64,000 nucleotides of DNA from Pachyseris speciosa (lineage: Eukaryota > Cnidaria > Anthozoa > Scleractinia > Pachyseridae). The notes below the pieces were generated by a model. That model ran no database searches and was not told where the DNA came from. It saw nothing but the letters and a program-made list of their open reading frames with translations. A program made the translations under genes and the position numbers. Shown one piece after another: positions 27,775 through 55,844 of this stretch. Location: assembly GCA_016490735.1 (NCBI GenBank), contig JAEMWC010000197.1, positions 713,501 through 777,500 of the forward strand, read 5' to 3'. How positions within the stretch are numbered: position 1 is the first letter of the stretch; each line of letters starts with the position of its first letter.

Positions 27775-27815
<41 letters not shown>

Positions 27816-31929: not shown

Positions 31930-32967
31930 CTACAAACCTAAGGACCTGGAAACCGAAAGCCTGACGACTGTGTTGTCTTTAACATACCCATTTTTAGCCA
32001 TTGCGGACTTCCAACGACCGTGTCTTTGAAAAACTCTATCAGGCACGCCACTATTAGCCGCCGCAGATACTCCACCCGACCTAAACGAGTGAGTGCCATA
32101 TACGTGAGGGTTGGGAACGAAATCTCGCAGCGTTTTGCGCAAGTGATCCCTGAAGGTACTATAGCTAATAGGTTGGTTCCCGGAGGCCAACTTGTATGAC
32201 ATTTTAGTCTTAATTAATCGCCTAAAAATGAATTCCTCTGAGAAAGGGTCAATATCAAACGTAGTTAAATACTCTTTCAGGATCTTAACGGGGCAGGCCG
32301 CACCCTCTCCCTCTGCAATCAGGACCTCATCTCCCTGCCTTAATTGGTCATTTTTACTCTTAACAACTTTGATTGATACATAACCGTTGTGAAAAGAAAT
32401 TTGATTTCTCTTAATTCTGATAACATCATCGAACCTGAGGAAGCCCGAAAAACACAATAAATACAAGGAAACATTTCTCAGCTCCAAGCCGTTAGACAGG
32501 TCAGCCCCGTCAACTATACTCTTGAGCAATTCGGGTGGGATAGGTTCCATCCGGTTCGACCTTCCAGTGTCTAGGATTCTCTTAGACGCTTCCCTAACCG
32601 CCACAACCAGTGAACTATCAGTAGGGGAGACCAACGCGGTGGTCTCATGAGCCCATTTAATCCCGTAGAACGCGGCATCAACTGAACTACAAGAACTGGT
32701 AGTTTCTAATAAGTACTGCAAATAAACGGCAACCGGGAGCGGTTCCGCCGGAAAATGCGATATTTCCCCCCAGCGCGACGAAAACTCCTTCCACCTAGTG
32801 AACGCACGCGTGTATCCGGTTACGGTGCCAGCAGCCCTTGACATCAGAAAAGTGGATTTTATTCTGCCAGCCAAACTCCTCAGATCAGGATGCTTGAGAT
32901 TTTCCACTTCCCTCCAGACTCCATGTTGGAAGACATCTGAAACGAGAAGAATAAAGGAAGGTAGCAA
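31930..32967 (-). CDS. Tyrosine recombinase of DIRS-type element
   Basis: 345-codon intact ORF. An N-terminal SAM-like core-binding domain (about 45-130) is followed by a catalytic domain with the tetrad pattern: Arg in GFLRFDD (about 177), His-x-x-Arg in THSFRSGG (about 295), HGRWKS, and Tyr in NGYV. This protein integrates circular cDNA by site-specific recombination. It follows the RT ORF on the same strand and may be translated from the same transcript. The start codon is uncertain because the frame is open upstream. It is intact although the RT part is frameshifted. Confidence 0.85.
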   Translation of the reverse strand: MLPSFILLVSDVFQHGVWREVENLKHPDLRSLAGRIKSTFLMSRAAGTVTGYTRAFTRWKEFSSRWGEISHFPAEPLPVAVYLQYLLETTSSCSSVDAAFYGIKWAHETTALVSPTDSSLVVAVREASKRILDTGRSNRMEPIPPELLKSIVDGADLSNGLELRNVSLYLLCFSGFLRFDDVIRIKRNQISFHNGYVSIKVVKSKNDQLRQGDEVLIAEGEGAACPVKILKEYLTTFDIDPFSEEFIFRRLIKTKMSYKLASGNQPISYSTFRDHLRKTLRDFVPNPHVYGTHSFRSGGVSAAANSGVPDRVFQRHGRWKSAMAKNGYVKDNTVVRLSVSRSLGL

Positions 32968-33018
32968 GAACTAATTTGCTCTGCATAAAACTGTTGAGTT
33001 TCGGAATCGTTGTGAAGG

Positions 33019-34000
33019 CTAAATGTACGCAGAGAAAAACAAACTCAACATGAGAATAAACGGGAACAATGAAATGATAGTGCCAATAAATGAAGCCAGA
33101 TCCCTGGTCTTAACTACACGCGATTCGCACTGACTGAGAGAATCAGCGAAATTAAGAAGTTTGAATATTCTTTGATCAGCGGCAGCAATTGTACCCTGAT
33201 CGGTATCTATAACACCACCTAACCAAATTATAACGTGAGAGGGATCCCACTGGGACTTCTGAGAGTTTACAAGAAAACCAAACCTGATTAGATCGCTATG
33301 CACCTTCAAGCTATTAATTTTAGCAATAAGCTCAGTAGCACCTCCGCCTAAACCATCATCAAGAAAAACGACAATTGGAATTCCTTGACACCTCCACATT
33401 TTAATGACAGGCTTTAATAGTTTTGTGAACAAATACGGCGCTGACGACAAACCGAATGGAAGGACAGCAAACTGAAAAAAACGAGTGTTTCCATCACCAA
33501 AATCCCAACCAAAGGTCAAGAACTTACGGTGGTAACGAAAAATCTCTACATGATGATAACCTGATTTGAGGTCGAACTTAAAAAGCGAAAAACCCCGCGA
33601 AATAATTGAAAGAGCGACCCTCAGATCTTCACATTTAAACTTTTGTTTGTAAACATACAAATTAACATGTCGTAGTCCAGTATTAGTCTCTTCTTTCCAG
33701 ACGATTGAATGGACACTGACAAGGGGTTAACAATTTCTGGCGCTCCATATAGTTCCTCAACACAATGCTTACTGAGGAGATCGTAAATCGCTTCAGAAAC
33801 GAAATCCTTCTCCCTGATAGCAGATAAGTTATTATCACTACGTTTTGGAGGAGGAATAGAAACAAAAGGAATTTTATAGCCCTCTCGAATAACTTCCAAA
33901 ATAAAACCGGGAGAATCAATTCTTTCCCACTCGGAGATGCATTTGGCTAACCTGCCCCTAACCGATACGTTGGATCATGCATGAGTGGAATCAAACTCAT
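33019..34000 (-). pseudogene. DIRS-type reverse transcriptase, frameshifted
   Basis: The first part encodes EWERIDSPGF, VIREGYKIPF and NPLSVSIQSSGKKRLILD. After a frame change near 33650 it continues with FKFDLKSGYHHVEI, PFGLSSAPYLFTKL and the catalytic VFLDDGLGGG block. The sequence ends soon after LASFIGTI, so the RNase H domain is lost. One frameshift separates the fingers from the palm. Confidence 0.85.
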
Positions 34001-34174
34001 AAGAGTCAAGAAAAGGAAACTCCTCCCAAGAAGAATGGACGCCCACACTAGGAAAATGCACATCATAATCAACATCTAAAGAGTTATCAGTAACAAAAGA
34101 ATCGACTACACCTTGCTCGTAATCGTCTAGTCAGATGCTTGTGCCGAACTTCGGATGAAACGTGGGGCATTGCG

Positions 34175-34440
34175 TTATCCAATGATATCTAAAGTATCCT
34201 GGATCTTGGCATTAAACCTGAATTGGTCTTCGTTTGCTTTCTTCTTAAGGCGCCTTGGTTCCTCCAGCTTGAGTTTCTTGATCTCGCGGATCTGGGCGTC
34301 TGAGGAATCGGCTTGCGATCGTTTCAAATCGCCAATGGATTTTTGAAAAAGTTCCGTCATTGACGCCATCATGGTCTGGTTGTTAGCTTCTATCATCTTA
34401 GCAATGTCGTCCTTCGAAACATTCCCTTCGCCCATGCTGA
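34175..34440 (-). pseudogene. DIRS-type gag-like ORF remnant
   Basis: Begins MGEGNVSKDDIAKMIEANNQ, then a helical segment with FQKSIGDLKR, REIKKLKLEEPRR and KKANEDQFRFNAK. This pattern is typical of the first ORF of cnidarian DIRS elements. The frame ends after about 90 residues, so it is truncated. Confidence 0.65.
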
Positions 34441-34906
34441 AGAACGGGGAAAATATTATCAACAAAATAACAAGCATATAGCGACTGATGCAGGCCTAGA
34501 ATGGCTCCCCACGTGACGCACTAAGCCTTTATAGACAGCATGATACCCATCATGCCTCACAAATCGTACCCAGGCCACTTCTGTTCCCGTGCCGTAGAAA
34601 TATCAATTTCTGTCTAATTTGCACGCTCAATCGTCAGAAATTACATATTCTAAAAGTAATGGGGCCGCTAGTTTCGGAACTCTTTTTTTTTTTTATTTTC
34701 CAGGACTCTGCATCTGCCTCCTTCACTTTGAGAACCATTTTAACACTAGGGACGGATTATGCGTCTTGTTTCACTGTAGAAAAAGCACGGTGTTCAATTT
34801 GGGCAGATAATTCGCCTGGTTTTATTCGTCTTTTTATCCGTTCAGAGCCACCTTGATTTTTCGATAATTTAAAGTGACTCTGAATCCCATGTTCAATTTT
34901 TTTTAA

Positions 34907-35493
34907 GTGCCCATAATGTCAAAAAATGTTTTTCGCTCATCTAATTCTACATTTCACCAAATGAACTTCTGCGAAAAAAATTTTCGATTTGGATAAAACG
35001 CAATTTTTATATAATTTTTTAAAGACATTCAAATTTGCCGCCATTTTGGTCCACCATTCGCACCAGTCTTCCTCGGTTTAAAGGGAGTCGTGACGTAGGT
35101 TCAGGAACACGTGATTTTGGGTCGTGACTTATCTGACTTGAAAACAAGTGGGAATTTTGCTTCAGAAGGATTAAAGCGTGGAGGTCACTAAGGACACCTA
35201 ATAAAGCTCACAATATCATAAAAGACCCGCACTCGACCTGTGTGTTTATGTGCACTCAAGGTCAAGTGAGGTTCCTGAACCTACGTCACAGACATCAATC
35301 ACGTGGTCATTTTGAGCACGTTACTCTTGTGATCAGCGGCAGGGGTCGACCGCAAGAAAATAGAATTTTGAACTTTGTAAAAATTCGTCAAAAAATCACG
35401 TTTTATCTAAATCGAAAACGCTTTTCACAGACGTTCATTTGATGAAATGTAAAATTAGATGAGAGAAAAACATTTTTTGACATGATGGGCACT
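34907..35493. mobile_element. MITE with TTAA target duplication (copy B only)
   Basis: Inverted termini GTGCCCATAATGTCAAAAAA and its near complement (TTTTTTGACATGATGGGCAC) with arms of about 90 bp. TTAA lies at 34903-34906 and 35494-35497; copy A has a single TTTTTTAACCC at the equivalent site. TTAA duplications are typical of piggyBac and Kolobok families. Confidence 0.8.
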
Positions 35494-37439
35494 TTAACCC
35501 ACTGACTACCAAGCATTTTGCTAAAAAACATCTTTTGAAGCTCGTCGAGCCGTTTTATGGCCAGATTGTAGCCAAAAAGAACCAAAACTGCCCAAAACTC
35601 TGTTTGCTGGTGGAGTTCATTGTAACCGTCTGTTCCTGATGCTTAATTTTAGCTTTCCAAGATCGGGCATGCGCAGAAAACAAAATTTGGGTCAAAAGTT
35701 TCACCTCCCCCTCTCCTTCTACCTTTCGCTTTCTCTCCTCCCCTTTTATTTCGCTTTTCTTGCCTCGCCTTCTTTTTCTCTTGCTGGGCATTTCCCGGGC
35801 TTCCTTTCAGTGGGAAAATATTTGTGGAAAACTTTTAGGATCATAGGATTTGGTGCAAGGATGTGCAGGTGGGTCGTGGAACAAGATTTTCATTCAAATT
35901 TTCGACTCAACGTCACTTGTTTTTTTTTTTTCGCGTTTTCTCCGGCCAGTTTGACGAAATCGTGCTCATTTGGGTATGGTTTGAAAGATCTCTTCCCCCT
36001 TCACATGCTACGTGTAAAAGTTGTCCATGAGCATTAAAACTGATGACGTCACAAGCGGTACAAGGGACGTGGTTCTGCGCGGCCGGTTTTGGTCGGCACG
36101 GCTGCCAAAGGGTTAAACTTTGTAGAAAGATAAAACTTGATATGTTGATTGCAGTTCAATAATAAAAAACGGGGGTCATCCAACTCGTTTTTGAGTTACA
36201 GGCACATAAACCCAAAATTAAAGGAGTTTCTAAGAGGCTCTACTGTTGCTATTGTAACCTAATATGTCACAAAATGAATCACAACTTGTTGAGAAATAAT
36301 TGAGAAATTTTTTGATACCATCTTCAAGAAAACGAACAAAATATTGTGGGAGTATCGATCCATCAAAGAGTTGGTGTTTAAAAGCAACGAGACCATTTTG
36401 AGCCACCTTAAACTTTACAGATTTGAATGCGAATTTGTACCGTGCTTTTATATTTTTCATTGCCGTTTTAATATTCCCAAACAACGTAAGCTGATCGATG
36501 AAGCTACAATTGCAATCTGTGAAAATCGTCAGTTCGAGCGAATAAATTCTGCTCTAAAGTGTCTCGCAATTCGCTTGCATATCTTTCGCGTACTTTTACT
36601 CTAGGCGAAAACTGAGCGCTTTCGCTTCTGTAGTTGCTCGCATTTATTTGCTTTGGTACTGTGTGTGCTTTCAGGAATGAAATCTGCGAGTGTGTTCACT
36701 TTGTAATAATGTTTTGAATCGTCTGTAGCCTTTGATTGATAGCAAAAGGATTCTGTTGCGTGTTATCGTTTGTACTTTGTGCTTACGATAGACCTGGGCA
36801 GTTTGTAATACTCTACTGTTTGTTTACATTAGCATTCTGTAATGTTTGTACGTTTAAACAAATTCTGACTATTGCCAGCAATACATTGATCGTGGCATCC
36901 CACGTAAACGCCTCCAAGCGTCTCGTTTTATTGACTAACCGTCCGATTTGCTGTTTCCTTACTGGTAAGGGTGATAATAGACTGGCCTAGAGATCCTCAG
37001 AGGAGAAAGTGTCCGGGACTCGGGTTGTTTGCCAGCAAACGCTGGTGTGGTGTTTGAAGATCTGAAGATCAAATTAGGATACCCCTACTTGTATTGCCAT
37101 CAAGGGAACTGTGAACATGTGGTGATCTTTACTGATCTTAGGTGAGTAATTCAACATAATCCAAGGTTTGATATTAATAGGGAAAGGATCTCTTCAGTGC
37201 AGTGTTGCCATATGGAAGCTTCCGAGTCCTACTTGAAATTCCGTGGTGCTCTTTTTTATTCGGCATGATTGCTGTAGGTTATACGACGTGGTTCTAACTT
37301 TTCAATCGGTGGTTAAATTCCCAGAGCTTGACCATTCAAATGAAAACTACTGACCCGCTGTCGTACTTTCGTCTGGTGTACAATCCAAACATTTTCGTCT
37401 TTGGATGAAATCCTTGAGTGATACCGTTCAGATTAAAGC

Positions 37440-37850
37440 TGTTCATAGATAGATAGAAACTTAGTAAAGTGTCAAACCGTGTAGCCTGGGAGAAACCCAT
37501 ACTAATAAGGGGACAGACACATCTTAATATAAAAATACAATACAGAATTAAAAAAACTAAACCATCTGCATTTGAAATATAACTATTAAAATTAAAGAGT
37601 CTCATGTTGTACAGAGGATACAACCCTTGCAACTCAGTTAGATCTTTGCCACGAATGCGCCTTTTAAACTCATTAAGTGTTTTGGCTGATCTGTCATCCG
37701 AAGACAGTTTACCCCATACTTTAGGTCCTAAGTATCGCAGTGAGTGCCTACCGTAAGTTACAGAGTTATACCAAGGAGTGGAGAAATCAGATTGGCTCAA
37801 ATGTTCATGTTCAGAGTGCTGCTGCATTGTACACAAACATTGTAATGCAA
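37440..37850 (-). mobile_element. LINE 3' fragment, copy B
   Basis: Duplicate of the 4515-4990 fragment, with the same [13 protein letters not shown] and [10 protein letters not shown] segments and the TCTA tail. It has small deletions relative to copy A. Confidence 0.8.
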
Positions 37851-38793
37851 ACCTTTTGTCCAGTTTTCTGTTCGTCTTTGATAAATTATTTATTGATGGA
37901 CATGCATTGCGGTTGGCGTATCTTTTCTAACCCTTTATTTCTAGCTCTTTTGATCCTCACCTCTTGGGCAAAAGATGAGAGCTTGGTGACTATTTTCACT
38001 TTAGACAACCTGCAAGAGCCAAAGACTTGAACCTTTCACTCCCATTTAAGTTCAAAACTTCATCAGAATCAGTACTCATATCAGTTTTAAGTGGTGTCGA
38101 CACCGGAGGATTTCATCGACAGAGCCAAGTGATTGTTGTTGTTGTGTTGTTTTGTTTGTTTATTTTTCATTTTTCTTTTCTTTTTTAAGACAAATACTGA
38201 TCTCTGCCTTCGACTATGAATTCCAGAATATTTGTTCGTGTGAGAATTTTCATTGATTCAAGACTGTTGAGTATATAATTTATTATACTTTGAAATTAAG
38301 TGTACCTCTATGCACAGTCACCTTGTACTTTGTGAAGTTAAGATGTGGTTTCGTTCTCTCTTTAACAATTTCGTGATAAATCGTTTGTTGCCCGTTTTAG
38401 TCACTGAGATCTGAATCGCGACGACACGTTACGACTGCTATACTGCTGGTATTCATCTGTTTATGGTGTCGACTGGCTGTGAAGTAGCATTCATTTCTAA
38501 CCGCGATGACCAACACCTTTCCTTTTAAATTCCTTCCGTTTTCCCGATTTTTCTTCTCTGCTTGTCGGTGAGTCTTCTTTCTGTTCAATCAGATGAGTGA
38601 TGCATAGATTCGAGTGGTTCAAACCGCCTTCGTGCCGCGTTGAGCTGAATGTGGCTCCATTTCTTGGTTTTCAGATTGTTAGATGTAGACGACGAACCCA
38701 ACGCGAACGAATACCCATTACAAGTGTTTAAACATCGAGGAAAGAGATTGCGGTGCCGACTGTGTGATGTGTACACCGCAAGGTAAGACAAGA

Positions 38794-39244
38794 CAATAGA
38801 GACCTTAAGATTAAGGTTTTTCGGCTTTTCCCGCGAACCGCGAACGTCAAGAAGTCACGTGACCAGTGCCTTGCCGTCAGGTTTGCGGTTTGAGGTTCAC
38901 GTTTGTACGGCTAGACCACGCTCTAGAGGTAAGTGATTTACCGCAAGGTTTTTTGCACCCTAAAACATCACAATCACACCTTTGAGAGGAAATACTACTT
39001 TTTAGAACTCTTTCGCCTATTAATTATCGAATTCTTTTTCATAGAAACGTCATTTTTAAGACGATTTCTCAGCTAAAATAGAAGTGAACGAATGACTGAA
39101 AACAAACATGGCGGCTGGCTATTTGTTACCCGCGAATCTTAAGTGCCGAATATAGGCCGACAGCTAACGTGAAACCGCTAACCGCAAACCGCGGTTTGCC
39201 GTTTGCAGTAATATAGTCAAACCTCGATCTTAAGGTCTCTAGTA
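38794..39244. mobile_element. MITE in intron remnant (copy B only)
   Basis: Inverted ends TAGAGACCTTAAGAT and ATCGATCTTAAGGTCTCTA-type enclose a 450-bp body with repeated AACCGC motifs (GCTAACCGCAAACCGCGG). ACA flanks both sides (38791-38793 and 39245-39247), while copy A has one ACA at this place, which suggests a 3-bp target duplication. Confidence 0.75.
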
Positions 39245-40216
39245 ACAGGTTTCCTCGCGCGCGGAATAGTCCCTCACAGCGAATGAACGTAACGCTAATA
39301 GTTATTACAGCTAGTTTTGGATGACAAGTTCATTGAGGTCGATAAAACCAAAACTACACTAATTGCTGAGACCAATCACCCAAAAGCGTTAGCAACACAA
39401 TGAACCAGTCAGAAGTCGTAGTGTCAAGCACAGGAAACGTGCAGACAGTTCACCTGTTATTATAGTGTGACTTCTAATTGGTTGGTTGAGAAAATGGCGC
39501 GAGTATTATTGTCAACCAATCACAAGGAAGTAAACTTTCATTTGTTGATGGCTTAGAAAGTGGCGCGAGTTTTGTAAACCAATCATAAGTTACTAGTGTT
39601 TGATTTACTGTTGGCTGGGAAAGTGGCACGAGTATTGTTAACCACTTGAATCAGAGAGTGGTAATCTTTGATTTACTGTTTATTTTAGATGGGTGACTGT
39701 GAATGATACTCTAGCGTGTGAGGATCCTTGTTTCTTCTGTGCCACGTGTTTTAAGGGACTTCACTACTCACCGAACGGCGAGAAAATCTACGATTTCCAA
39801 GCTTATCCGGTAGTCGGAGACTTCGACTGGTGATTTGGTCTCGCATCCATGACCTTACTGGATGGAGTGCGGGAGAATAAGCAAGCGCATCAGGGCGAGG
39901 TGACGGAGGCGAGGAAACGGTAAGCTCCAATGCTAGCGTTTTTCGAGATAACATCCCGAGAAGCAGCAATCCATGGCGTCTCTTTCCAAGTTTGACGTGC
40001 ATTAACTAAGTGTATGAATATGGATTACCCTTTTAGGCGGCACTAAAGACGGACTCTCTTGCCTTAAGAGGATTTCACCTTGGTATAAAATTTTCAGATA
40101 CAAGCAGTGTCGACTTCCTTGGGGACCAGCACATATGAAAAGAAATAGAAAACAAACTGCCGTTATAAACAGGACACACGAACCACGCATGGTTTAAGAA
40201 CTTGAATTCATTTAAC

Positions 40217-40258
40217 TTGACGTTTCGTATGTTACAACATACATCTTCAGAAGTGACA
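40217..40258 (-). ncRNA. Hammerhead ribozyme (Penelope type), copy B, intact core
   Basis: Same motif as at 6361-6400: CTGAAGA (40244-40250), 7-bp stem II and GAAAC (40222-40226), here followed by GTC. GAAACGTC is the minimal helix III form reported for hammerheads of Penelope-like elements, which are thought to work as dimers. Confidence 0.6.
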
Positions 40259-41039
40259 GTTATAAAAATGTGCCATTTTGTGGGCGAATTTAAGACTTTG
40301 CTGGTACAGAGGTTAACAAGAGGCAGTCGGTCAAGAACTGCATGTGGCTACTGCTTAACAAGCTAAAACAGTGAATAAAGTGGATTCTTTATAGTTAAAG
40401 CAGTGTCGTGAATAGTAGTTGCAGTATTTTTTGTAGCTACCAGCCTAGAAGAGGCTCGAAGAGGTCAGTGATTGGTTGCACTCGGTACTGTTCGATGTCT
40501 TAGAGCTTCGTTTCCCTTCGTCATCATTGGCTCTATTTTGGAATACTAATCTACTCAGTGACAACGTTGGAGCGACGTTGCTGGACTCCCTTGAAGTTCA
40601 AAAGAGAAGTTGTTAACTTATTTCAGATCACTTTTTGCTATTTTGCACCTGTAACCAGGTATAGCTCTCTTAGACAGTGTGAGAAGTGTTTTTTCCTGGC
40701 CCGTTTTTCGAGATTTGTAGTGACCGTTTATGGAGGTTTTCCAGCCGACGAGTGCTCTCTGAATCGAATTGTGTCTGACGTCCATGACAATCGAGTAAAA
40801 AAAATGTCTTACGAGACACAAAACCTGCTTATTTCAAGGGCCAAAGAAGCCGATTGTTTTTCACCGGCCGGAGTTGTGATTTTCGATACCACAAATACAC
40901 GAACGTAAACAGGTCTACTGGAAACGTTCTCGCGCGAGAATTCTTCCTCAGGACAAAAGTGACATTAAGATCAGGGATATGACGGTAATTTACGGAGCCC
41001 CCAATAGGGCATTAAGCAAAAAAATTTGAGATTGAAAAG

Positions 41040-41130
41040 GACGACATATAAGTCGACTTATAACTCGTCCAACGCGTTTTGTAAATTCTCGTCCAAGTCG
41101 ACTTATAAGTCGACTTATAACTCGTCCATT
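41040..41130. repeat. Palindromic minisatellite, copy B
   Basis: Two units of the SalI-palindrome repeat (TATAAGTCGACTTATA), orthologous to the longer array at 7440-7605. Confidence 0.8.
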
Positions 41131-41583
41131 TGGTTTATCAACGGAGTTGATAATGTAAATTGGCCACCGTACAGGGATTCGATTAGCTGACGTTTCGAGC
41201 GTTAGCCCTTCGTCAGAGCGAAACGAGGAATTGTGGGTTGTGTATGGTTTATATACAGAAAATGGAGCTACGCTGGTGGTAAAATGGAAACGTCAAAAAC
41301 AGGAATAAATTAATTGAATGAAAAGCGCTCGTTGATACCGTGGGTGAGTGCCGCTTTGAAAGATCAATTTTTGCTCGAGATTTTTACGGCCTTCTGTGGT
41401 ACCTTGATGTAGGGAAAGGCCGAAGATCGACATGTGTTGTTTGGAATGGCTAGGGAGAGTAAAATGCCGAGCGACTGGTTTGGATGCATCTTTGTCATCT
41501 TTCTCAACATCACGAAGATGTTCTCGGAATCGGTCACCTAGTCGTTTCACCTCAGTGAAATCAAGCAAACTACAAACAATAGT
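41131..41583 (-). mobile_element. Penelope-like element 3' end with GIY-YIG domain
   Basis: Inserted in copy B only. The minus strand encodes the C-terminal half of the GIY-YIG endonuclease of Penelope-like elements (RLGDRFREHLRDV, KPVARHFTLPSHS, GLSLHQGTTEGRKNLEQKLI), ending in a stop near 41293. A short terminal region carrying a hammerhead motif follows at 41185-41222. This is the ORF-then-pLTR order of an endonuclease-containing Penelope element, truncated at its 5' side. Confidence 0.85.
41180..41225 (-). ncRNA. Hammerhead ribozyme of Penelope terminal repeat
   Basis: Minus strand: CTGACGA (41210-41216), stem II GGGC-TAAC-GCTC, GAAAC (41192-41196) and GTC cleavage triplet, with a short AGC/GCT stem I. 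It has the minimal helix III typical of Penelope hammerheads and lies about 100 nt downstream of the GIY-YIG ORF. Confidence 0.75.
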
Positions 41584-41749
41584 AACAGCCAGTCCGAACA
41601 GACTACAACTGTCACCGTATTGCCTCAAGCTTTCTTTCTTTTGTCTAATGTCTGATCGTTTCCCTTAGGCCGAGCTGTCCAAGATCACTACCGAAACTCC
41701 CGAAACCGTGCAACCGAGAAAGGATGCTATAACATGATTCCTTATATGG

Positions 41750-42270
41750 TGTATGTTCATCACCTGAGCATGAAATGAAACAAGTAATGTTTACTGAATG
41801 AGCAGGAGTGTTTTACCAAGATTAAATAAAACACTCGGCAGCGCCTCATGTTCGGACTCTGCATAGAACACGAATTGCGAATTTATTGAACGGCTTCAAG
41901 AGCTTTACTGTACATCTATCCATTCTTACGTTATTATTTGGATTTTGGATTATTTCGGCCTAGAAAATTTAGCCGTGTCAATATAGCAGTTATAAAGACA
42001 ATCAACATTAATTTATTTTGTATTTTCTTCAATAAAAAATTAACTACTTTAAAAAGAGGGGCGACCTGCACCATTTGCAACACCTCACAAGATTGGTTCA
42101 AAACAACAATAAACAAAGAATTAAAACAATGGAACCTAGCCATAAAACAATAGAGGTGCAACTGATAAAGATCCAGTGAAATTAGAGGTTTCAAAGAGGT
42201 GCAGCCCTACCCTAAAAAGATACAGCTAAAATGTTATTAAGAAGCTTATAAAGTAATAGTATTTTCATAA
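41750..42270. other. Mixed unique and duplicated sequence
   Basis: Contains a short hairpin (GAGTGTTTTA / TAAAACACTC) at 41809-41838 and about 40 bp matching copy A near 7880-7915. The rest is unrecognised. Confidence 0.4.
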
Positions 42271-43651
42271 TAATAATTTACTCAATTCTGATTGGCTAAA
42301 AAAGCAGTGCAGTTTTGCTGTAACAGTGCAAAAACGTATAACACGAGTGCAAAGCTGTAACACAGTGCAATTACAAATGTATTTTGATTGGTTTAGAAAC
42401 AACAGAAATTTGAATGAGCCAATCAAATCGTAGCTGTTTCTATAGCAACAAGTTCGCGGTGAGTTTGAGCCGCGTTGAAAATTGTGAAAAACAAACAATA
42501 GCCGACGTTTTGAGCAGGTTTCCTTTCGCAGAGGAGCTGAAAACAGCTCTAAAAACGAGCACGGTACGAAAAGCACTGCTTTTCGGCTGTCTGTTTGGAG
42601 AAAGTGATGTCTACAGAAGGGCCCGTAGGCGGTGCAATTTGGAATAAATAAGCACTTGTAAATGTTTTCAAACGGGCTCGTGCAATTTGTGGTCTTTGAA
42701 AAAATTTACAATTGCTTATTTATTCCAAATTGCACCAGAAAAATCATGTGATTACATATTAATAATAGACACGAAAAAATTGTGTTGCATAAGCAACGCA
42801 GGTGAACCACGTGCAAAAATAATTTATTCATCACGCGCAGGTCAAAACAACAGTTTAGTCAATGTTTTTAAAGTTGTTAAGCCTCAAAAACCGTCTGAAA
42901 AGTTATATGCTATAGCTATAAGGCTGCTTCGTTTTTCAAGTGTCTATCAAATGCTGTATAATCATTACCTTCAGTATTTCTGTTTCATAATCTTCGTCTT
43001 GTTTGTTATTGTCTCCTCGGCGTAAAATGGCTTGAGCAAAGTGTTATTCAAGTTCAACGGGCTCATAACTTTCGATTTCTTCGGTAATTCCCTTCTTTAG
43101 ACATCACTTTCTCCAAACAGACAGCCGAAGAGCAGTCTTCGGCCATTGTTTGATGCTGTATAATCATTACCTTCAGTATTTCTGGTTCATAACCTTCGTC
43201 TTGTTTGTTGATGTTTTCTCGACGTAAAATGGCTTGAGCAAAGTGTTACTCAAGTTCAATGGACTGATAACTTTCGATTTCGTCGGTAATTCCCTTCTGT
43301 AGACATCGCTTTCTCCAAACAGACAGCCGAAAAGCAGTGCTTTTCGTACCGTGCTCGTTTTTAGAGCTGTTTTCAACTCCTCTGCGAAAGGAAAGCTGCT
43401 CAAAACGTCGGCCATTGTTTGATGTTTTTCACAATTTTCAACGCGGCTCAAACTCACGGCGAACTTGTTGCTATAGAAACAGCTACGATTTGATTGGCTC
43501 ATTCAAATTTCTACTGTTTCTAAACCAATCAAAATACACTTGTAAAGGATACTTCACAAATTAATGTGATCAAGTAAGCTGAAGCCACTCTAAAGGCACT
43601 AAGGCCACAAGGTAGCGGGCATTACCCCTTAAATCTACCAAAGCAAAGATT

Positions 43652-43732
43652 GAGCCCAAGCATTAGCCACCATGGACAGCTGTTTCGGCCTTGTTAGGCC
43701 TCGTCAGCATGGTATAGCTAATGCTCAGGCTC
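43652..43732 (-). ncRNA. Hammerhead ribozyme, array unit 1
   Basis: Minus strand: stem I 5' strand GAGCCTGAGCATTAGC...CCATG, core CTGACGA, stem II GGCCT-AACA-AGGCC, GAAAC, helix III ACA-GC-TGT, cleavage base C, then CATGG...GCTAATGCTTGGGCTC pairing back to stem I with internal loops. All conserved core bases are present. Confidence 0.88.
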
Positions 43733-43905
43733 AAGTACCCACATATCCATAAAACAAGCAATGAAAACGTAAAGCTTGTGGGACGTGGCTGGAGTGACAA
43801 GGATACTTCACAAATTAATGTGATCAAGTAAGCTGAAGCCACTCTAAAGGCACTAAGGCCACAAGGTAGCGGGCATTACCCCTTAAATCTACCAAAGCAA
43901 AGATT

Positions 43906-43986
43906 GAGCCCAAGCATTAGCAGCCATGGACAGCTGTTTCGGCCTTGTTAGGCCTCGTCAGCATGGTATAGCTAATGCTCAGGCTC
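43906..43986 (-). ncRNA. Hammerhead ribozyme, array unit 2
   Basis: Same structure as unit 1, exactly 254 nt further along. The base before the CATGG stem I segment differs, outside the core. Confidence 0.88.
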
Positions 43987-44159
43987 AAGTACCCACATAT
44001 CCATAAAACAAGCAATGAAAACGTAAAGCTTGTGGGATGTGGCTGGAGTGACAAGGATACTTCACAAATTAATGTGATCAAGTAAGCTGAAGCCACTCTA
44101 AAGGCAATAAGGCCACAAGGTAGCGGGCATTACCCCTTAAATCTACCAAAGCAAAGATT

Positions 44160-44240
44160 GAGCCCAAGCATTAGCAGCCATGGACAGCTGTTTCGGCCTT
44201 GTTAGGCCTCGTCAGCATGGTATAGCTAATGCTCAGGCTC
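44160..44240 (-). ncRNA. Hammerhead ribozyme, array unit 3
   Basis: Same structure, a further 254 nt along. All core, stem II and helix III bases are intact. Confidence 0.88.
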
Positions 44241-44413
44241 AAGTACCCACACATCCATAAAACAAGCAATGAAAACGTAAAGCTTGTGGGATGTGGCTGG
44301 AGTGACAAGGATACTTCACAAATTAATGTGATCAAGTAAGCTGAAGCCACTCTAAAGGCACTAAGGCCACAAGGTAGCGGGCATTACCCCTTAAATCTAC
44401 CAAAGCAAAGATT

Positions 44414-44488
44414 GAGCCCAAGCATTAGCAACCATGGACAGCTGTTTCGGCCTTGTTACGCCTCGTCAGCATGGTATAGCTAATGCTA
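44414..44488 (-). ncRNA. Hammerhead ribozyme, array unit 4 (imperfect)
   Basis: Core intact, but stem II has one mismatch (GGCGT against AGGCC) and stem I is cut short at GCTAATGCT where the array turns into its inverted end piece. Likely weak or inactive. Confidence 0.7.
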
Positions 44489-44664
44489 CTTGATCACATT
44501 AATTTGTGAAGTATCCTTGTCACTCCAGCCACATCCCACAAGCTTTACGTTTTCAAAATACATTTGTAATTGCACTGTGTTACAGCTTTGCACTCGTGTT
44601 ACACGTTTTGGCACTGTTACAGCAAAACTGCACTGCTTTTTTAGCCAATCAGAATTGAGTAATT

Positions 44665-46595
44665 TTTTTCGTGTATATTATTATGTCAGTAATTGACGAT
44701 CTAGTGCAAACAAACGGCTTACCCACTGCTGTGAACTCAAAAATTTTCTTTGTAAACTGCTCCTCGGTTGTACAATTAAAAACTGGTCTTGCATGCCTGC
44801 ATGATTCAAATAACTTGTTCACAACAGATGTAAAGTAAGTGTTGAACAGTTCTGAAATGCTTTGTTTATCAGTAACAATCTTGTCATCGGCCTTTATACA
44901 GGTGGGAATAGATTTCTGTTTCGCGTCCGGCATTGTCTTCTTCACAGACCTCCAGAAAGATTCAGAATCGCCGCTGTTCTCTTCAAGTAGTGTTCTACTG
45001 TAGCTTTCTTTAGCACGTTTAAGCCTTGCACTGACTTTATTCCGAAGTAGTCGATATGCAGCCAAATCGGTGTCCAATTTTGATCTACGATATTTCTTGA
45101 GACAGGCATCCCGAGCTCTCATCATCCGTTTGATTTCAAACGAAAGCCATGGACAATTAATTTCGCCCTCTTACTTTCTTGTCGATTAATGGAGCGTGTT
45201 TGTCATATTCAGCCGCAAAATTGCACCTCCACAAGGACCAGGCTTCATCGACGCTGGTCGAACTCAACACACTATCTCACGGGATTCTTTTCAGATCTCT
45301 GCAGAAAATTGATGGATCAGTATTTAGCATAATTCCTGCACTTTATCACACGAGGTTGTTCCTTGAAGTTGTTTATCTTTCGAACAGAAATTAGCATATC
45401 ATGATCACTCAGACAGGATTCAGCAACTATAGCTCGAGAAATGTTTCGTGAATTTGTGGTGGCACACAGGTCAATAAGTGTAGCGGTGGTTGACGTAGTC
45501 CGTGTTGGTTCATTTATCAAATGTGTTTAACCAAAGGTTTTAAAAATCTCCTTTAACTTTTCGGTTTCAGGGCTTGGTTTCTTCGGCAAAAAATCACAGT
45601 TGAAATCCCCGTTAACAATAATTTCTTTTTCCTCGGCCGCAGCACAGTCCAGGCTGTAATAAAAGCGGTCCATATAATCTAGGTTAGGCTGGCTAACTGA
45701 CTCTGATGGTGGCCGATAAAATGTTCCAAACAGTGTGCCTTTAGATTTGGGCAGAAAGATCTCACTCCAAACAGATTCATCAATCTCGAGGTCAGATCGG
45801 CGGACAGCATTAATTGACACACTGACAAACACTGCTACACCGCCTCGTTTCCTCTCCAGTCTATCTCTTCTAAAAAGTGTAAAGCCAGGCAATGACACTT
45901 CTTCATCCGAAATGTTACCGTTGAGCCATGTCTCAGTTAAAGCTATGATGTGAATTCGTGGACTTTGCATTAAGAAAGCACGAAGTTCATTTAACTTCTT
46001 CCTCAGGCTTCTGATGCTTTGATGAATGAATTTAAAAGACCACGCAACTTTAGGGTAGCATCAGATGTTGCTGGTACAACAAAACTATCGTTTAGACTGT
46101 TATCGAACTATTGCTCAGAAGAAGATAGAACTGAGCAAAAATTACAAGTCGAACCAGATTCAAAGTTCGCATCCAGGCATTTTAAATGGGAACGCGATTT
46201 GCATAAAACGCAAGTTCCAAAAGCCTGCATGGATTTCTTCTGACCGTCTTGAGACACCGAGGACAGGTTACTTTAGTGGAAGGTCCAGGATTCACGGAGA
46301 TATCATTGCACTGGAGCAGTAAACTTGCAAGAAGAACAGATCTTGTAAGCCTGACAAGCTGAGCTTTGGCGACAGGAGTGAAGGAAATTCCAAAATGGCT
46401 GCCGCTAGAAGCTTTCTTTCTCACGGGCTGCTTAAAAGCGATGAAAGAAGAGAGTTCACATCCAATAGCCAACCCAGAGCAGTTGACTTCTTGGTTATCC
46501 AACCGTGTAAGACTTTTACAATTCGATATATCCCTTGTGAGTAAGGAAACGAGTAGAAGAAGAATGCCACTTCGCATTACCTGACAAACCGCCAT
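44665..46595 (-). mobile_element. LINE 5' part: PHD-like motif, 2A-like motif and AP endonuclease domain
   Basis: Minus strand, 5' to 3'. A leader ends LLASLLLQCND followed by ISVNPGP (46281-46304), a 2A-like motif, then Cys-rich CPRCLKTVRR and KCLDANFESGSTCNFC as in a PHD-type finger. The APE endonuclease follows with ALTETWLNG, GGVAVFVS, LFGTFYRPPSES, NGDFNCDF and SDHDML, carrying the catalytic Glu, Tyr, Asp/Asn and His. A linker (DSESFWRSVKKTMPD) leads toward RT but the element stops at 44665, where the foldback transposon begins. At least three frameshifts. The order matches L2/CR1-clade ORF2. Confidence 0.85.
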
Positions 46596-46677
46596 GAATT
46601 ATTTAGGATTTTTAAACGCTTTTAAAAAAAACAACGAATAATCAGTCGTTTGAATCAGTGTCTTCGTTCATCCATGA

Positions 46678-47323
46678 CTAGAACTTCACTATCCTAACCG
46701 GTCTGCACTCATTTGTGATAGTAGTCATTCTAGCTGACTCTTCTTCTTGTTTCTGTCGTTTTTCTTTCTCTCTTTTTTCTATTTTCTCCAAGGCCGCGCG
46801 ATAAGCCCATTCCTCGGATTTTATCCTGCTGTTGACTTCTTTCTTTGCCTGAAGTAAGTTCTCATAATTCTTTGCAAGCGTGCTCCAGGGTATCTCGAAA
46901 TTCCACACGTCGCTTTCGGCAAAAAAACTGAGCTCGCTTTTCCAGGTGCTGGCATTCGATTCCACTGATAAAATGCAGTTGGGCCAAAGTCCGTGGGGAG
47001 TTAGGAAGAGGAGAAATTGCCGCGACTGCGAAGGCAACAAACGTTGTAGAGCTGGCACCAAAGATCGGTGCAAGACGAGGGTACTTTGCAGCAAACTTTT
47101 TCCATGTCAGTGTGGATAGCACACCGCCTGTAGTCCCAGACAGTCCTGTAAAGCAAGATGCATACTGTATTCTGCGATCCCATTTTGTGTAGTGCTCAGA
47201 TGATAGGTAGTGGGAAGTGGCTGTTACACGCAAACTACGTCGCATTTCGTGAAGTTGTTTTTCTAAGTTACGTCTCCTTTCTCGATCCGCTTGAGACATC
47301 TTTGAAAAGATCGAAGAACCCAT
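46678..47323 (-). pseudogene. SLATT-like gene, copy B, frameshifted
   Basis: Nearly identical to 8231-8851 up to KRAQFF. There a seventh A in a homopolymer (46921-46927; six A in copy A at 8450-8455) shifts the frame and ends translation 20 residues later. The second half continues in the neighbouring frame with AESDVWNFEIPWSTLAKNY and the usual tail. Its 3' end retains the tail TNECRPVRIVKF that the MITE removed from copy A, so it shows the ancestral C-terminus. A homopolymer error in the assembly could also explain the break. Confidence 0.8.
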
Positions 47324-47445
47324 CGAACAGTTCTTTTAAAGGCCTTGTCTGGATGAACTTTAAGGGCTCGAGCACAACACGGAAGATTCATTCTCGTTTC
47401 CAGGGCAATCCGTCCCTCTCATTCGGAAAGGCCTGGATTAAAGTC

Positions 47446-49818: not shown

Positions 49819-51015
49819 TTATTTTTTTAAAACTCCAAGACCCAACTTTTCTTTCGCGTTTTTTGCATTTCTTGCCAAGGCATGCCCCCACTGTCTTTTT
49901 TCCCAAGGGACAGAATCCAAAGCTTTCACCATTTTTCTGTCAGCAGCATGCTTGCATTTTTTTTTCGTCCTCACCATATTTTTTTGCCCGGTGTCCACAA
50001 CTGCTGTAATCCACATCATGTTGCATCGCAATAGCATCCGTTGCCCCGGTCGGTTTCTGTAATATTTTCAAGATCACACCTGTTTCAGGGTCAAAGCTAA
50101 GTTGTTGATGAAGGGGATTGTAAGGGCCTGTGTAATTATGGCCAGGAAGGGTCCAACCACCTTTTGGCGCGGGTAGTTTTCCAAGTAATGTATGAACATC
50201 AACACCAGACCCACAGTAGTTACGTAGGGTTTTCTCAAAACATCCGCGAAACCACGATGCTCAGGGATGGCTTTCCCGAAAGCTTTCAAACATTTCATGT
50301 CAGTTGCAAACTTTGGAACAAGCACACCCTGTGACCTTGGATCAAACAAGTTCCCAATACCTCTTCCATAACCCTTCCATTTTATCCAGGAGTCGTAGCT
50401 GCGGGAGCCACCTTTGTCTTTGTATTCTTTGTACTGTCGTTTGTATTCAGCCACCATTGCCTTCCCCTCTTTTTTAGAAACTTCAGGACCTTTGAAAAGT
50501 TTGGGATCAGAGATAACACTCCACAGTTTTTTGAAATCAAAGAATGGGAAGGGAACAGGAATTCCCGCTCCAGTGGGATTGTCTAGATCGGGTCTGTCGG
50601 TCTTGTAATGGATGTTGGGGCGGACATTTGTTGAAAGCTCATCCAACACGGTGCTCCCAGCATTTCGAAACATAGGCTTGCCCTTCTCCACAGCCCAATC
50701 GATTGCCTTTCGTTGGAGCTTGGGATTCCTCATCGCTTCCGACGCATAGTATCGCCCCATCTCCACCCCTTTCTTTGCGAGATACGGAACTCTATGGTGA
50801 AGAAACAAATCCATCGCAGTTCCGCCAATGTCTTTACCAATTCCTTTGCCCTCTGCAAGAGAGGGCCCCGCTAGTTTCCCAACTTCGGTAAGAAACGTGT
50901 TCTTGTTATTCCACAGCTTGCGCATTTTACTTTCAACATTCTTCGTCCGTTTTTCGCAGTAACCACTTTTTCTGTTCCAGGGCCATTCGGAGTCTTTGGC
51001 TTCTCTCTCACACAA
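49819..51015 (-). pseudogene. Large virion protein with C-terminal phospholipase A2-like domain, frameshifted
   Basis: The first 280 residues are open (VPYLAKKGVEMGRYYASEA, LSTNVRPNIHYKTDR, PVPFPFFDFKKLW). The frame then changes near 50200 and the minus strand encodes KLPAPKGGWTLPGHNYTGPY, the Ca-loop-like YTGPYNPL. It continues to DAIAMQHDVDY with the His-Asp catalytic pair, and after another shift to the tail ALDSVPWEKRQWGHAL. This is the parvovirus-VP1-type PLA2 fold also found in Polinton and adintovirus proteins; in parvoviruses it helps breach endosomal membranes. Placement next to protease and capsid genes supports a virion role. At least two frameshifts. Confidence 0.75.
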
Positions 51016-51028
51016 TAGCCATCCACCA

Positions 51029-51480
51029 TCACGCTATATGCTCAAAATAATTTTTCACAACTCTCTCGTTGTCGCGCACATTTCTGGAAAACGTTCGTAG
51101 AATATCTCTGTAATCTTTCCCTTGGTTGCGTTCATTCAAAAACAAAAGACAATAGTACCCACATCGCACACTATCAATCGTTTGTATTTGGTTATTGCTA
51201 CGTAGAAAGGATTCATTTCCCACTTTCAACATTTCTTGTTCCCATTCTACCGGAGGAGGCTGACCAAAAGAGTCAAAATACTCCATATCTTCCCCGTGCC
51301 AGCAAGCGACCCAGTGTGTTCCCAAACTGCCAAAATCGTCCAAGTTCAAAATGCAAGGTGAGTGGTGCAGAGGTTTGACTTCGTCTCGGGAAAAAATTCC
51401 TCGAATTGGGATGCCGAGATATTTGCACCAATTGGTCAGATCAATGTTCGAGCGTGGAACGTCACGAAATTCCAGCCTTT
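51029..51480 (-). CDS. Adenain-like cysteine protease
   Basis: The open frame on the minus strand starts near SNIDLTNWCKYLGIP and continues through SRDEV, NLDDFGSLGTHWVACW, YFDSFGQPPP and VRCGYYCLLFLNE. His in THW, Asp in FDSFG and Cys in CGYYC form the catalytic triad of the Ulp1/adenain family that matures capsid proteins of adenoviruses and Polintons. About 150 residues, the normal size. No ATG is obvious at the N-terminus, which overlaps the end of the upstream pVI/pX-like ORF. No stop interrupts the catalytic part. Confidence 0.85.
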
Positions 51481-52262
51481 GAGCTGGAAACTTTCTTTTC
51501 TCCCAATCTTCCCCTACCCCAAACAGGTGGTGGTCGATACCACGGAGGGTTTATTTGCATTCCTTTTACTCTTTTTCCTCTTCCGCTTTGTGGTGGGGGT
51601 GGTGGAGGAAGGGGTAATGAGCGTCTTGACCGGGAAGGCCCTACTTGGATCCCTTTTCCTAACATTCCTTTCACAAGGTCGATCGCTTGAGGAATCCCAA
51701 TGGAAGCCAACATTCCCAGAAACCCCCCATACTGTGCACTTCCTCCACCGCGAACCATTCCTTTCCCAACCAAGTGTTTTTCAATCATCTTCTTTTGGTC
51801 TGGCGACAACCTTTGTGTGAGCCGGTAAGGCTCCACTTCCCTTGGTCCATAACCCTTCCCGAAAATTTTCTTCAAAACCTTATCCGCAGCGAAACTCAAC
51901 CCTGCAGTTGCCAAAGTTTTGGCGGCGGATTTGGCAGCCGGTGCAAGCAACGGCCAAGTCAGACTGAATACTGTCGAAAAAAGATTGCCGCCGCTCTGTG
52001 CGATGTTTGCGATTTGTGTTTGGCTCATCGTGATGTCCGCGCCGCGCTTCTCGCTGGCAGCTTTCTTTGCGTGATTGATTTGGGTGACAGTCAGAGGAAG
52101 AGTATCGCCGAGTTGACCTGGTTTGACCCGCAGAGTCACGGCCGTTCGCGAGGCAAGAGCCTTTCGCAGCTTTGTTTCTGGCCATCTGCCAAGGCAATCT
52201 GAAACGGATGGTACTTCGTCGCCATCTTTATACCAAAGAAAAGAATTTTCTATACTTTCCAC
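51462..52262 (-). CDS. pVI/pX-like minor virion protein
   Basis: Intact 266-codon ORF. The N-terminal part has the pattern TVTLRVKPGQLGDTLPLT, then DITMSQTQIANIAQSGG, an Ala-rich hydrophobic helix (WPLLAPAAKSAAKTLATAG) and a Gly-Lys-Gly-rich tail with LVGKGMVRGGGSAQYGG, a candidate protease site region, ending in an Arg/Pro-rich basic tail. These LPL(T), S(K/Q)xQI and GG features are typical of the adenovirus pVI/pX-like proteins of Polintons in aquatic animals. Such proteins bind the capsid interior or genome. It lies between protease and capsid candidate on the same strand. Confidence 0.7.
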   Translation of the reverse strand: MESIENSFLWYKDGDEVPSVSDCLGRWPETKLRKALASRTAVTLRVKPGQLGDTLPLTVTQINHAKKAASEKRGADITMSQTQIANIAQSGGNLFSTVFSLTWPLLAPAAKSAAKTLATAGLSFAADKVLKKIFGKGYGPREVEPYRLTQRLSPDQKKMIEKHLVGKGMVRGGGSAQYGGFLGMLASIGIPQAIDLVKGMLGKGIQVGPSRSRRSLPLPPPPPPQSGRGKRVKGMQINPPWYRPPPVWGRGRLGEKKVSSSKAGIS

Positions 52263-52278
52263 CTGATGGTGGATTAGC

Positions 52279-53530
52279 CTATAACCAATTCGTTTCCTTT
52301 TTGTGTAATAACAAATTCTTTCTCATTCAAGACGGCTGCGAAAATTTTGTAATCGTGGGCATCGGCTGCTTCATTCAACCGAAAATGGAATTCCATATCC
52401 ATTGCATCGCTGTCATGCTTTCTTTGGTCGCGCGGAGGTCGAAGTAAACAACGGGGTAAAGAGACGAAAAGTTGTCCATACTGATTTGAGTTCCGGAGTT
52501 GGGGTCGTTCTTCCTGTATCGGTACTCGAACAGATCGCTGTAGATGGGTGTCCGGTCACCTTCGTCATAGTCGAGCTCGGGGTAGAAGGTGGAACCATAC
52601 TTCAGCTTGCAAAAGCTCAGTTTCGCCGAGTTGTCTCCATCGAGGTCGAAAGTGTCAAAGCTGTACGGATTGAAGGTGATGGCGTTTGACTTTCTCGTTT
52701 GCTGGAAGAAGACAAAAACAAATCCGAAACACGCCTTCCGCATCTCTCTGGGCTTGGCTGGGGACCAGTGTTTCCTGCAAGTAATTCCATTTTATCGGTC
52801 TGAGGAACTGTTCATTCACCATTTTCTTTCCCGCAGGTGTCAGCTGCAGTTTTGGAACCCACAATTCGAACTTTTTGACCCCAATTCGTCGCCCAGTGGC
52901 GTCGTTCTGGAAAATCATTTCATTGTCAGTCTGCAGATCAACTTCAAACTAGAGGTTCAATGCAGGGAGCAATTTGTCCGCCAGCTCTTCGAAAAACGAG
53001 AATATTTGAGAGGGATCACAGTTTTCACCGTTCCCGCCCCTCGCGAAAGTTTATGTCGCACTTCGATACCTTTGTTGGTGGCGGGTGTGGCGGGGTTGGT
53101 AACAGTTGAGTTGTCGGTGTCGAGATACCAGAACTCACGCTTCGCCACGATCCACGAGTAGTCGTCGGAATAATCCAACAAAGTTTTGATGAAGATCACT
53201 TTGTGGACGTCAGTTGCTGTGTAAATAGGTTTTCCAGAGGATTTCAAAGTCAAGTTCCTTATCAACGAGAAAGAGCCGTTGATTGGTGCCGTTTGCACGT
53301 TGTTCACAATGTTGGCGCCATCTGCAAGAGCCTCGAACCGGTACTCAACGTTGAAATAAGCGTTGTACCAGTCGCCGATGATGTTCCGATTTGATGCAAA
53401 GAAACTCAGCTCCGTTTTCTCTTGATGTTGGCCATTTCCTGGCGTAACGAGCGGGGTGTCGAGAAGGATGCGCTTGAAGTCTACCTTTTCAAGATATTGC
53501 GGTGACCTGAATCAAGCCATGAGATATATT
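52279..53530 (-). pseudogene. Major capsid protein candidate (double jelly roll), frameshifted
   Basis: Read 5' to 3' on the minus strand: FKRILLDTPLVTPGNGQ, FFASNRNIIGDWYNAYFNVE, IVNNVQTAPINGSFSLIRN, FIKTLLDYSDDYSW, NEMIFQNDATGRRIGVKKFE, SNAITFNPYSFDTFDLDG, NFSSLYPVVYFDLRATKE, and a C-terminal MEFHFRLNEA, DYKIFAAVLNEKEF. The beta-rich repeats, length of about 410 residues and the LYPVVYFDLR segment before a terminal strand pair resemble Polinton capsid proteins. At least three frame changes break it. Assignment rests on motif memory and position beside the protease and pVI-like genes. Confidence 0.65.
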
Positions 53531-53814
53531 CACGAAAAAAAATTTCAACGCCGATTGGCCAAAATTTGGGTGAGTTTCCACATGGCCTCTCCTCTTGGTT
53601 GCGCCTTTTGCCTCCCCAACAGTTGTCGGATCGTTTTCGCCCCCTTTCCTCTTTGAGGTTTTTTTCTTCTTTCCGCAAAGAAATTTTAGGAACCGGAGGC
53701 GGGGCTGGTTTCGTGAAACTTTTGCCAATGTCTCAGAGCGAGTCACGAATCACACCAGACCTTATGTGTATGAAGCGATACCAGCCGGCTCGCGGGTCAA
53801 GAAATTTCATCCAC
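53530..53814 (-). other. Basic linker region between capsid genes
   Basis: Short open frames rich in Lys/Arg (KKKKTSKRKGGEND, KGATKRRGH) on the minus strand, without a clear start. Possibly the remnant of a basic core peptide or of the capsid gene's 5' end. Confidence 0.3.
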
Positions 53815-54303
53815 TCACTTGGATGGTTCATTTCGAGTTGAGACAAACGTCGAAGACAAGACTATACCTTTCGAAAAATTTTTACATCTCGGGGGGACCT
53901 CCCGGATCACAAGAGCCAAAGCCACATCGGCGCCATTGAGGTTCAGAATGTTATTTCTCCCGTCTGTGACCCGTATTCCGACTGAGTCGATACGCACCTT
54001 GTTCACGGGGTGGAATGTAAGGCGGCGGGGTTCTTCGTTAAAAGGGTAGCTGACAGGCAGCCCCACAGTGTAAACGCTATACAAAACGTCTCTTGCAACA
54101 TCCCTCACCTTCCTTGTGATCAAGTCACAATGGATAAAAACCCAATCCACGCCCTTTGTGATATTTAGAATCCTGTCTCTCACGAAACTTGTTGCATCTT
54201 TCAAAATCTTTTTGTCAAAGCCCAGCAGCTCGGCCAATTTCCCGACGGAGAGGTCGAGCTCGTAGTCTTTGGCGACCCCGATCACGACCCGATAGACCGT
54301 CAA
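53815..54303 (-). CDS. Minor capsid protein candidate
   Basis: Intact 162-codon ORF. Features: LAELLGFDKKIL near residue 22; VFIHCDLITRKVR; VLYSVYTVGLPVSYPF; RRLTFHPVNKVRIDSVGIRV; ILNLNGADVALALVIRE. Proteins with this LLGF / VHCDLI / LNG-V-L pattern occur beside the capsid gene in cnidarian Polinton-like elements; a penton or spike-like role is my inference. It is the most upstream gene of the minus-strand virion cluster and carries no stop. Confidence 0.6.
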   Translation of the reverse strand: MTVYRVVIGVAKDYELDLSVGKLAELLGFDKKILKDATSFVRDRILNITKGVDWVFIHCDLITRKVRDVARDVLYSVYTVGLPVSYPFNEEPRRLTFHPVNKVRIDSVGIRVTDGRNNILNLNGADVALALVIREVPPRCKNFSKGIVLSSTFVSTRNEPSK

Positions 54304-54338
54304 ATGAAAGTACAGACTGAAAATGTGGGAGAATGGTC

Positions 54339-54883: not shown

Positions 54884-55022
54884 ATAATTTCCCATTAATA
54901 CCCACCAACCGAATGTTCACCTTGAAAAAAATCAGTCTTTTTACAGGGCGGTTTTTCAGGGCTTCATCACATTAATATTTCATCAATACGACGTAGATCT
55001 ATAAGACGACAAAGAGTCTGGA

Positions 55023-55238
55023 ATGAAACATTTACCCCCCCCCCTTGTCGTCGCGGGTGATCATGTTGAAATTGTGGAAATGACCCCAAATGTCAATGTC
55101 CATGATAACATCACAGCTCAACTCACGACAACCAACGACAATAGGGGGTTGGAATCATTTGGTTCTTCTTGGAATGATTCACATGAAAATTCTTCCATTG
55201 ACATGAAACCCTCCCAAACTGTGACATTGCGTATTTGA
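55023..55238 (+). CDS. Small unknown protein
   Basis: 71 codons, MKHLPPPLVVAGDHVEIVEM, with a Thr/Asn/Asp-rich middle and no recognisable motif. It overlaps the next gene's start by four bases (ATGA-like overlap), and both point the same way. A remnant of the fibre gene's end is possible. Confidence 0.35.
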   Translation: MKHLPPPLVVAGDHVEIVEMTPNVNVHDNITAQLTTTNDNRGLESFGSSWNDSHENSSIDMKPSQTVTLRI

Positions 55239-55789: not shown

Positions 55790-55844
55790 TCCAAAAAGTT
55801 CATCGCGAATTGACTTTTCCGAAATTGCAACAGCCCACCATATT

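Follow-up and report, generated by a model that had tools for sequence, protein, structure and literature searches.

A tandem array of hammerhead ribozyme units in the window analysed here, a 64-kb stretch of Pachyseris speciosa DNA, is a metazoan non-LTR retrozyme, a known kind of element to which we assign it by its features. The whole insertion occupies 43546..44553 on the minus strand (1008 bp) and probably entered its site as a non-autonomous element by target-primed reverse transcription, a reading for which its one-directional tandem hammerhead units, a target-site duplication (TSD), a gap-free empty site, an inverted RNA-5' end and junctions that fall inside the unit all argue. That a retrozyme-like array had moved as a unit was already the original prediction; the hammerheads, tandem units, TSD and empty site agree with it, and the inverted end sharpens the mode of movement. 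The kind of element is already known, and the informative part is the footprint of its insertion. Taken together, the TSD, the empty site and the inverted end give a start site on each strand, and thereby turn the question of which enzyme mobilises animal retrozymes, which is left open in the available text of two earlier studies (PMC7229834; PMC7761336), into a count, in which the two ends of every copy in a genome are mapped and set against the ends of Penelope-like elements (PLEs) and LINEs there.

The array, whose RNA sense is the minus strand, is reported by TRF as a repeat with a period of 254, 3.7 copies and 98% matches at 43545-44487. It had been described as four units of exactly 254 bp, which is correct for the three full units, that is, unit 1 (43545..43798, the last in the RNA, with its first base common to the TSD), unit 2 (43799..44052) and unit 3 (44053..44306); the fourth (44307..44487) has only 181 nt. 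Pairwise differences between units 1-3 amount to 2, 3 and 5 positions. The insert contains no stop-to-stop frame of at least 150 aa, and no flanking direct repeats of at least 40 nt, other than the units themselves, were found at it. The monomers have a GC content of 0.453-0.461 (three of three), and as 254-nt circles they are predicted to fold into rod-like structures of -86.4, -89.7 and -93.0 kcal/mol, with z-scores of -4.6, -7.0 and -5.7 against 60 dinucleotide shuffles per monomer.

Each of the four units carries a type I hammerhead on the minus strand, as the covariance model RF00163 (Hammerhead_1) matches all of them in cmscan, one above the gathering score of 34. The match in unit 1 (43669..43713) reaches 37.6 bits, with cleavage predicted between 43675 and 43674; those in unit 2 (43923..43967; predicted cleavage between 43929 and 43928) and unit 3 (44177..44221; between 44183 and 44182) reach 30.7 bits each, and that in unit 4 (44431..44475) reaches 33.2 bits. 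When 3.5 kb are searched, the three hammerheads below gathering have E-values between 1.1e-5 and 7.5e-5, so that all four lie at E<1e-4. In the cmscan alignment, the core CTGACGA, a stem II of GGCC/GGCC with a six-base loop and GAA are accompanied by a helix III that is a loopless palindrome (ACAG/CUGU) and by the cleavage triplet GUC, and the motif is extended by a long stem I. The expectation of a complete hammerhead in every unit thus needs a correction for unit 4, where a G-to-C change at unit position 153, marked by cmscan, breaks one stem II pair. Its local fold is also weaker (-29.1 versus -46.7 to -49.8 kcal/mol in the others), in part because the inverted piece described below replaces the outer strand of stem I. 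No other match to a hammerhead family was found in the 64 kb up to E=5. The exact core had no occurrence in two open collections, viral_contigs and genome_contigs, and searches with degenerate cores returned two stretches among the genome contigs and, among the viral contigs, one stretch in one search and 94 in another (80 listed, one match each), presumably unrelated phage and bacterial hammerheads.

The insertion lies in one arm of a foldback element, and its footprint is clear on both sides. The left TSD copy, CAAAATACACTTGTAA (43530..43545), stands on the RNA-3' side and the right copy, CAAAATACATTTGTAA (44554..44569), on the RNA-5' side; they agree in 15 of 16 bases, which at a fixed register and a match rate of 0.3 per base has a chance of about 2e-7 (for at least 15 of 16). 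The predicted 16-bp duplication at both array ends is hereby confirmed, and the predicted array extent of 43530..44569 resolves into the insert proper, at 43546-44553, and the TSD copies as the remainder. At each target junction 2 nt may be of either origin (AA; TG), so the TSD measures 12-16 bp. If C or T is allowed at the variable base, the window has the TSD sequence at the two flank sites and once reversed in the other arm, where its reverse complement at 42371..42386 marks the empty target site, as seen from the alignment and from the overlap of the inverted pairs I2 and I3 there. The unfilled site proposed for this arm is likewise real: the joined flanks align with it over 222 columns without a gap, and 214 of these are identical. 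The left, unfilled arm spans 42272..42621 and the right arm, interrupted by the insertion, 43292..44668; with the insert left aside, an alignment of the two arms over 353 columns shows 12 substitutions and one 3-nt gap. Such a clean empty site suggests that the foldback arms predate the insertion. On a larger scale, the segments 1127-8982 and 30072-47445 are paralogous and form a large collinear segmental duplication with blocks of about 79-96% identity. The second paralogue has about 4.6 kb extra at 41750-46712, comprising the foldback, a LINE fragment and the array, and this portion would have either entered after the duplication or been lost from the other copy.

At the right end of the insertion, 44487-44555 is an inverted copy of part of the unit that had been overlooked. 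This inverted partial unit (44487..44555, plus strand, 69 nt; inverted pairs I6, I7 and I8) corresponds to RNA positions of about 99-166 in reverse, with positions numbered from the first nucleotide past the hammerhead cleavage site. Its length is 68-69 nt, as its last 2 nt are common to the TSD, and it is 100% complementary to units 2 and 3 and 99% to unit 1. The sense part of the insertion runs from RNA position 205 of one unit to position 130, over 942 nt in total, and the inverted part covers 166 down to 99. The inverted end suggests that each nicked strand of the target primed on the RNA, one at position 130 and the other at 166, which favours reverse transcription with a primer from each strand over a movement of DNA. 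Both starts would be internal to the unit, neither of them at the hammerhead cut. Three features of these starts, all picked after seeing the data of this one locus, deserve mention: they are offset by 36 nt (an offset of 30-40 nt has a chance of 0.087), the 25 nt beyond position 130 are the A+C maximum of the unit (19 of 25, reached by 3 of 254 windows), and ATT follows the nick in one of three equivalent placements per strand (with chances of 0.11 and 0.13 given the local rates), the primer strand at the nick reading TTGTA/ATT. From the second start, at position 166, to the first base of the sense part there are 38 nt (chance 0.15).

From the DNA sequence we infer transcription, cleavage, circles, an RNA template and an enzyme, which may have acted together as follows. 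A multimeric minus-strand RNA would be made and cut by its hammerheads into 254-nt monomers, which would then be converted to circles. An enzyme borrowed from an autonomous retroelement would nick both target strands 12-16 bp apart, whereupon one nicked end would prime at RNA position 130 and copy 942 nt, and the other would prime at position 166 and copy about 68 nt. Joining of the two cDNAs would yield the inverted end, and repair the TSD. A copy of 942 nt from a unit of 254 nt implies that the template was a circle or a multimer. Unit position 125 reads A, G, G and A across the four units, a two-to-two split that a single-circle template does not predict and that therefore counts against one; as an arbiter between circle and multimer, we rejected this column as too weak. 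The anatomy of TSD and inversion on which this scheme draws is that of one array.

As for the enzyme that mobilises retrozymes, the available texts name LINEs or PLEs, with PLEs as a strong candidate (PMC7229834), or speak of likely candidates (PMC7761336). We regard a PLE as the likelier of the two, at a probability slightly below even, with a LINE close behind. In purified form, the PLE PAc was found to cut the two strands and to extend each of them, with a preference for ATT; its reverse transcription begins at two internal sites in connection with an AC-rich stem loop, the interval being the 30-40-nt 'tail' of genomic copies (PMC11167929). The 36-nt offset, the A+C-rich stretch and the possible placement of ATT at both nicks of our insertion thus resemble a PLE insertion. 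According to the part of the report available to us, PLE inserts of Adineta have inverted end repeats (pLTRs) and an optional 31-bp tail (PMC3846280), and with PAc and Adineta vaga Penelope our array shares tandem or partial-tandem copies, an inverted end, a TSD and a hammerhead (PMC11167929; PMC3846280). This likeness is one of form. Unlike PLEs, for which an ORF with reverse transcriptase and GIY-YIG endonuclease is expected, the unit has no long reading frame. In the same account of Adineta, inverted and direct parts overlap (by 15 bp in one case), whereas here they are 38 nt apart, and the TSDs there have 8-10 bp or, in some inserts, are absent (PMC3846280). The 12-16 bp found here do not match these published values, which is a weak discrepancy because PLE TSD lengths vary; they are nearer to those of L1 (14-16 bp), so that TSD length favours a LINE.

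Further ends come from the rest of the genome, in which our hammerhead search gave 66 matches listed, 63 of them over the cut-off, a lower bound since 74 were scored from 127,828 first-look candidates; the window's own array is absent from the 66. When 3-4.1 kb around each of these loci were compared with the unit by BLAST, no other full unit was found. Unit sequence outside the hammerhead is present at seven of the 66 loci, which represent three independent sites. One site (L101/L102) holds a piece of RNA positions 71-177, another (L141/L152) a piece of 71-171 by BLAST, or 58-171 by local alignment of L141, and the third, in three near-identical copies (L105/L107/L108), an inverted piece with its outer end at RNA position 157. 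The sense piece of this third site ends at +2 (BLAST, all three copies) or +10 (local alignment, L107 only), as if a self-cleaved end had been used, which counts against the internal-start reading. Read as starts, the outer ends of our insertion (130 and 166) and of these pieces (157, 171 and 177, with one more at the cleavage site) come from four insertion sites, and five of the six fall within a 48-nt stretch. On balance, the pieces at the three other sites lean towards internal starts.

With the PLE as the preferred enzyme, we tentatively suggest, at a probability of clearly less than one half, that Penelope-type enzymes may copy animal retrozymes into the genome by priming from each nicked strand at fixed positions inside the unit, around RNA positions 130 and 157-177. 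In this division of labour, the hammerhead would make the circle and the 'tail' stretch would serve as the handle of the enzyme. The A+C-rich 'tail' stretch lies roughly opposite the ribozyme in the circle.

The main competitor of this proposal, with a substantial probability that nonetheless stays under one half, is mobilisation by a LINE enzyme through twin priming during target-primed reverse transcription; in that case the 36-nt offset and the A+C-rich stretch would be due to chance. In the available text on L1, full-length copies have a TSD peak at about 14-16 bp, 5'-inverted copies are not prone to short TSDs, and about 70% of the latter show 2-5-bp microhomology (PMC2912911); the TSD of 12-16 bp and the 2-nt microhomology seen here come close to these values, and the 5' inversion itself is a common feature. 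A gap such as the 38 nt that separate the sense part from the second start is expected from twin priming on one RNA, LINE remnants are present in the window, and the available text on Nematostella compares the TSDs of retrozymes there to those of LINEs (PMC4918200). Against a LINE speak the RNA-3' end without a poly(A) or simple-repeat tail, the target without a TT/AAAA-like site and the starts inside the unit; the first two, together with the tandem multimer, also set our insertion apart from the 5'-inverted L1 insertions as described in that part of the literature (PMC2912911). Nor did BLAST show significant similarity between the unit and other parts of the window, among them the LINE regions (best E 0.24), and no LINE 3' end or tail common to the unit was found among the LINE remnants of the window by BLAST and by eye.

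Most of the hammerhead loci listed elsewhere in the genome (L098-L163) match a second, dispersed type I hammerhead repeat, 56 of the 66 to at least +47 past the cleavage site. It ends at +96 to +116 in 47 of the 66, at +57 to +74 in six and at or before +28 in ten, values that serve as a hint only, as 27 of these loci had served to train the end model and duplicate copies were kept; in pairwise comparison, 16 of the 66 loci continue past +116. Several copies have inverted partners, and the palindromic helix III is mostly the same as in the retrozyme; these repeats are possibly Penelope pLTRs. TRF gave no rows with a period above 100 for the first 30 of the genomic hammerhead loci, a result that we do not rely on. 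About 980 nt downstream of one hammerhead, on the same strand, lies a decayed frame (L121:2516-2890) with a motif that we take to be that of a Penelope-type reverse transcriptase; for this frame, Pfam returned only two unrelated weak rows (E 0.13 and 0.17) and a PDB search nothing. PLEs are likely to be present in this genome.

These repeats raise the question whether the unit could itself be a degenerate Penelope element, that is, a free-standing pLTR array instead of an independent retrozyme. The numerous hammerhead repeats dispersed through the genome, whose cores are closely similar, would fit this notion, as would the helix III shared by most of the 30 listed genomic hammerheads (ACAGCTGT) and the concentration of repeat ends 96-116 nt past the cleavage site, as far as a model trained on part of these repeats can tell. 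We nevertheless consider it unlikely, given that the unit has no BLAST match to the dispersed repeats outside the hammerhead, and that its long stem I and rod-like 254-nt fold resemble those of canonical retrozymes. Still less probable is an insertion of the array as DNA, for instance from an extrachromosomal circle of units or inside a DNA transposon that carried it. A tandem array would arise from a circle of 254-bp units too, but a TSD of 12-16 bp combined with a 5' inversion and its 38-nt gap would rather resemble reverse transcription, and the sole inverted match between the insert ends is the partial unit itself. Finally, the possibility of an ordinary satellite, with the flanking repeat and the inverted end as by-products of rearrangement in the foldback in which the array sits, is barely credible and was rejected, even with long hammerhead arrays of up to 62-mers described in a coral in the available text of PMC7229834, because it is contradicted by the gap-free empty site and the 16-bp TSD exactly at the array ends.

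The non-autonomous retrozyme that we favour has close counterparts, as the original prediction had correctly stated for metazoans in general (PMC7229834; PMC4918200, as far as available). Metazoan non-LTR retrozymes have been described from the coral Acropora millepora, a mussel and the axolotl (PMC7229834, in the available text), and the accessible portions of several reports document that corals, jellyfish and anemones have type I hammerheads in tandem repeats, that a coral repeat forms circles and that long TSDs occur (PMC7229834; PMC7761336; PMC4918200; PMC8490949; PMC11722881; PMC8969392). In line with what these accessible portions say of metazoan non-LTR retrozymes, our array combines type I hammerheads in short tandem units (about 150-450 bp; 254 bp here) with a GC content below 50%, a stable self-paired fold and a TSD of more than 4 bp (16 bp here), and it has neither an LTR nor protein coding (no frame of at least 150 aa). 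Compared with the available account in PMC7229834, the inverted 5' end and mapped start sites are found only here. The hammerhead repeats of Nematostella vectensis likewise have a large TSD, of 15 bp against 16 bp in our array, and the portion of that report at hand mentions no inverted end such as ours (PMC4918200). In the literature available to us, we came across no retrozyme insertion for which an inverted end had been mapped.

The window contains several other features. A LINE remnant on the minus strand (44649-46060) adjoins the foldback and includes an endonuclease domain (PF03372) at 45527-46060; a neighbouring frame of this remnant (44649-45170) has no Pfam match. At 31930-33726, also on the minus strand, a tyrosine-recombinase-type integrase (PF00589) lies beside a reverse transcriptase (PF00078), possibly as part of a DIRS-like element. 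A block of frames at 50074-61990 appears Polinton/Maverick-like by eye; Pfam and PHROGs gave no confirmation on the frames tried. At 22615-25137, a 49/105-bp tandem repeat extends over about 2.5 kb and has no hammerhead match. By eye and self-BLAST, we further recognised a small gene family with four copies, at 8231-8863 (minus), 9993-10637 (plus), 14521-15111 (plus) and 46862-47335 (minus), of which the first has PF18967 in two of its 33 homologues, the only named homologue being from Acropora cervicornis (46%). Lastly, ARAGORN calls a four-base anticodon in an inverted pair of tRNA-like sequences, at 27538-27611 (minus) and 27790-27863 (plus), which is located near a tRNA-Thr at 25826.
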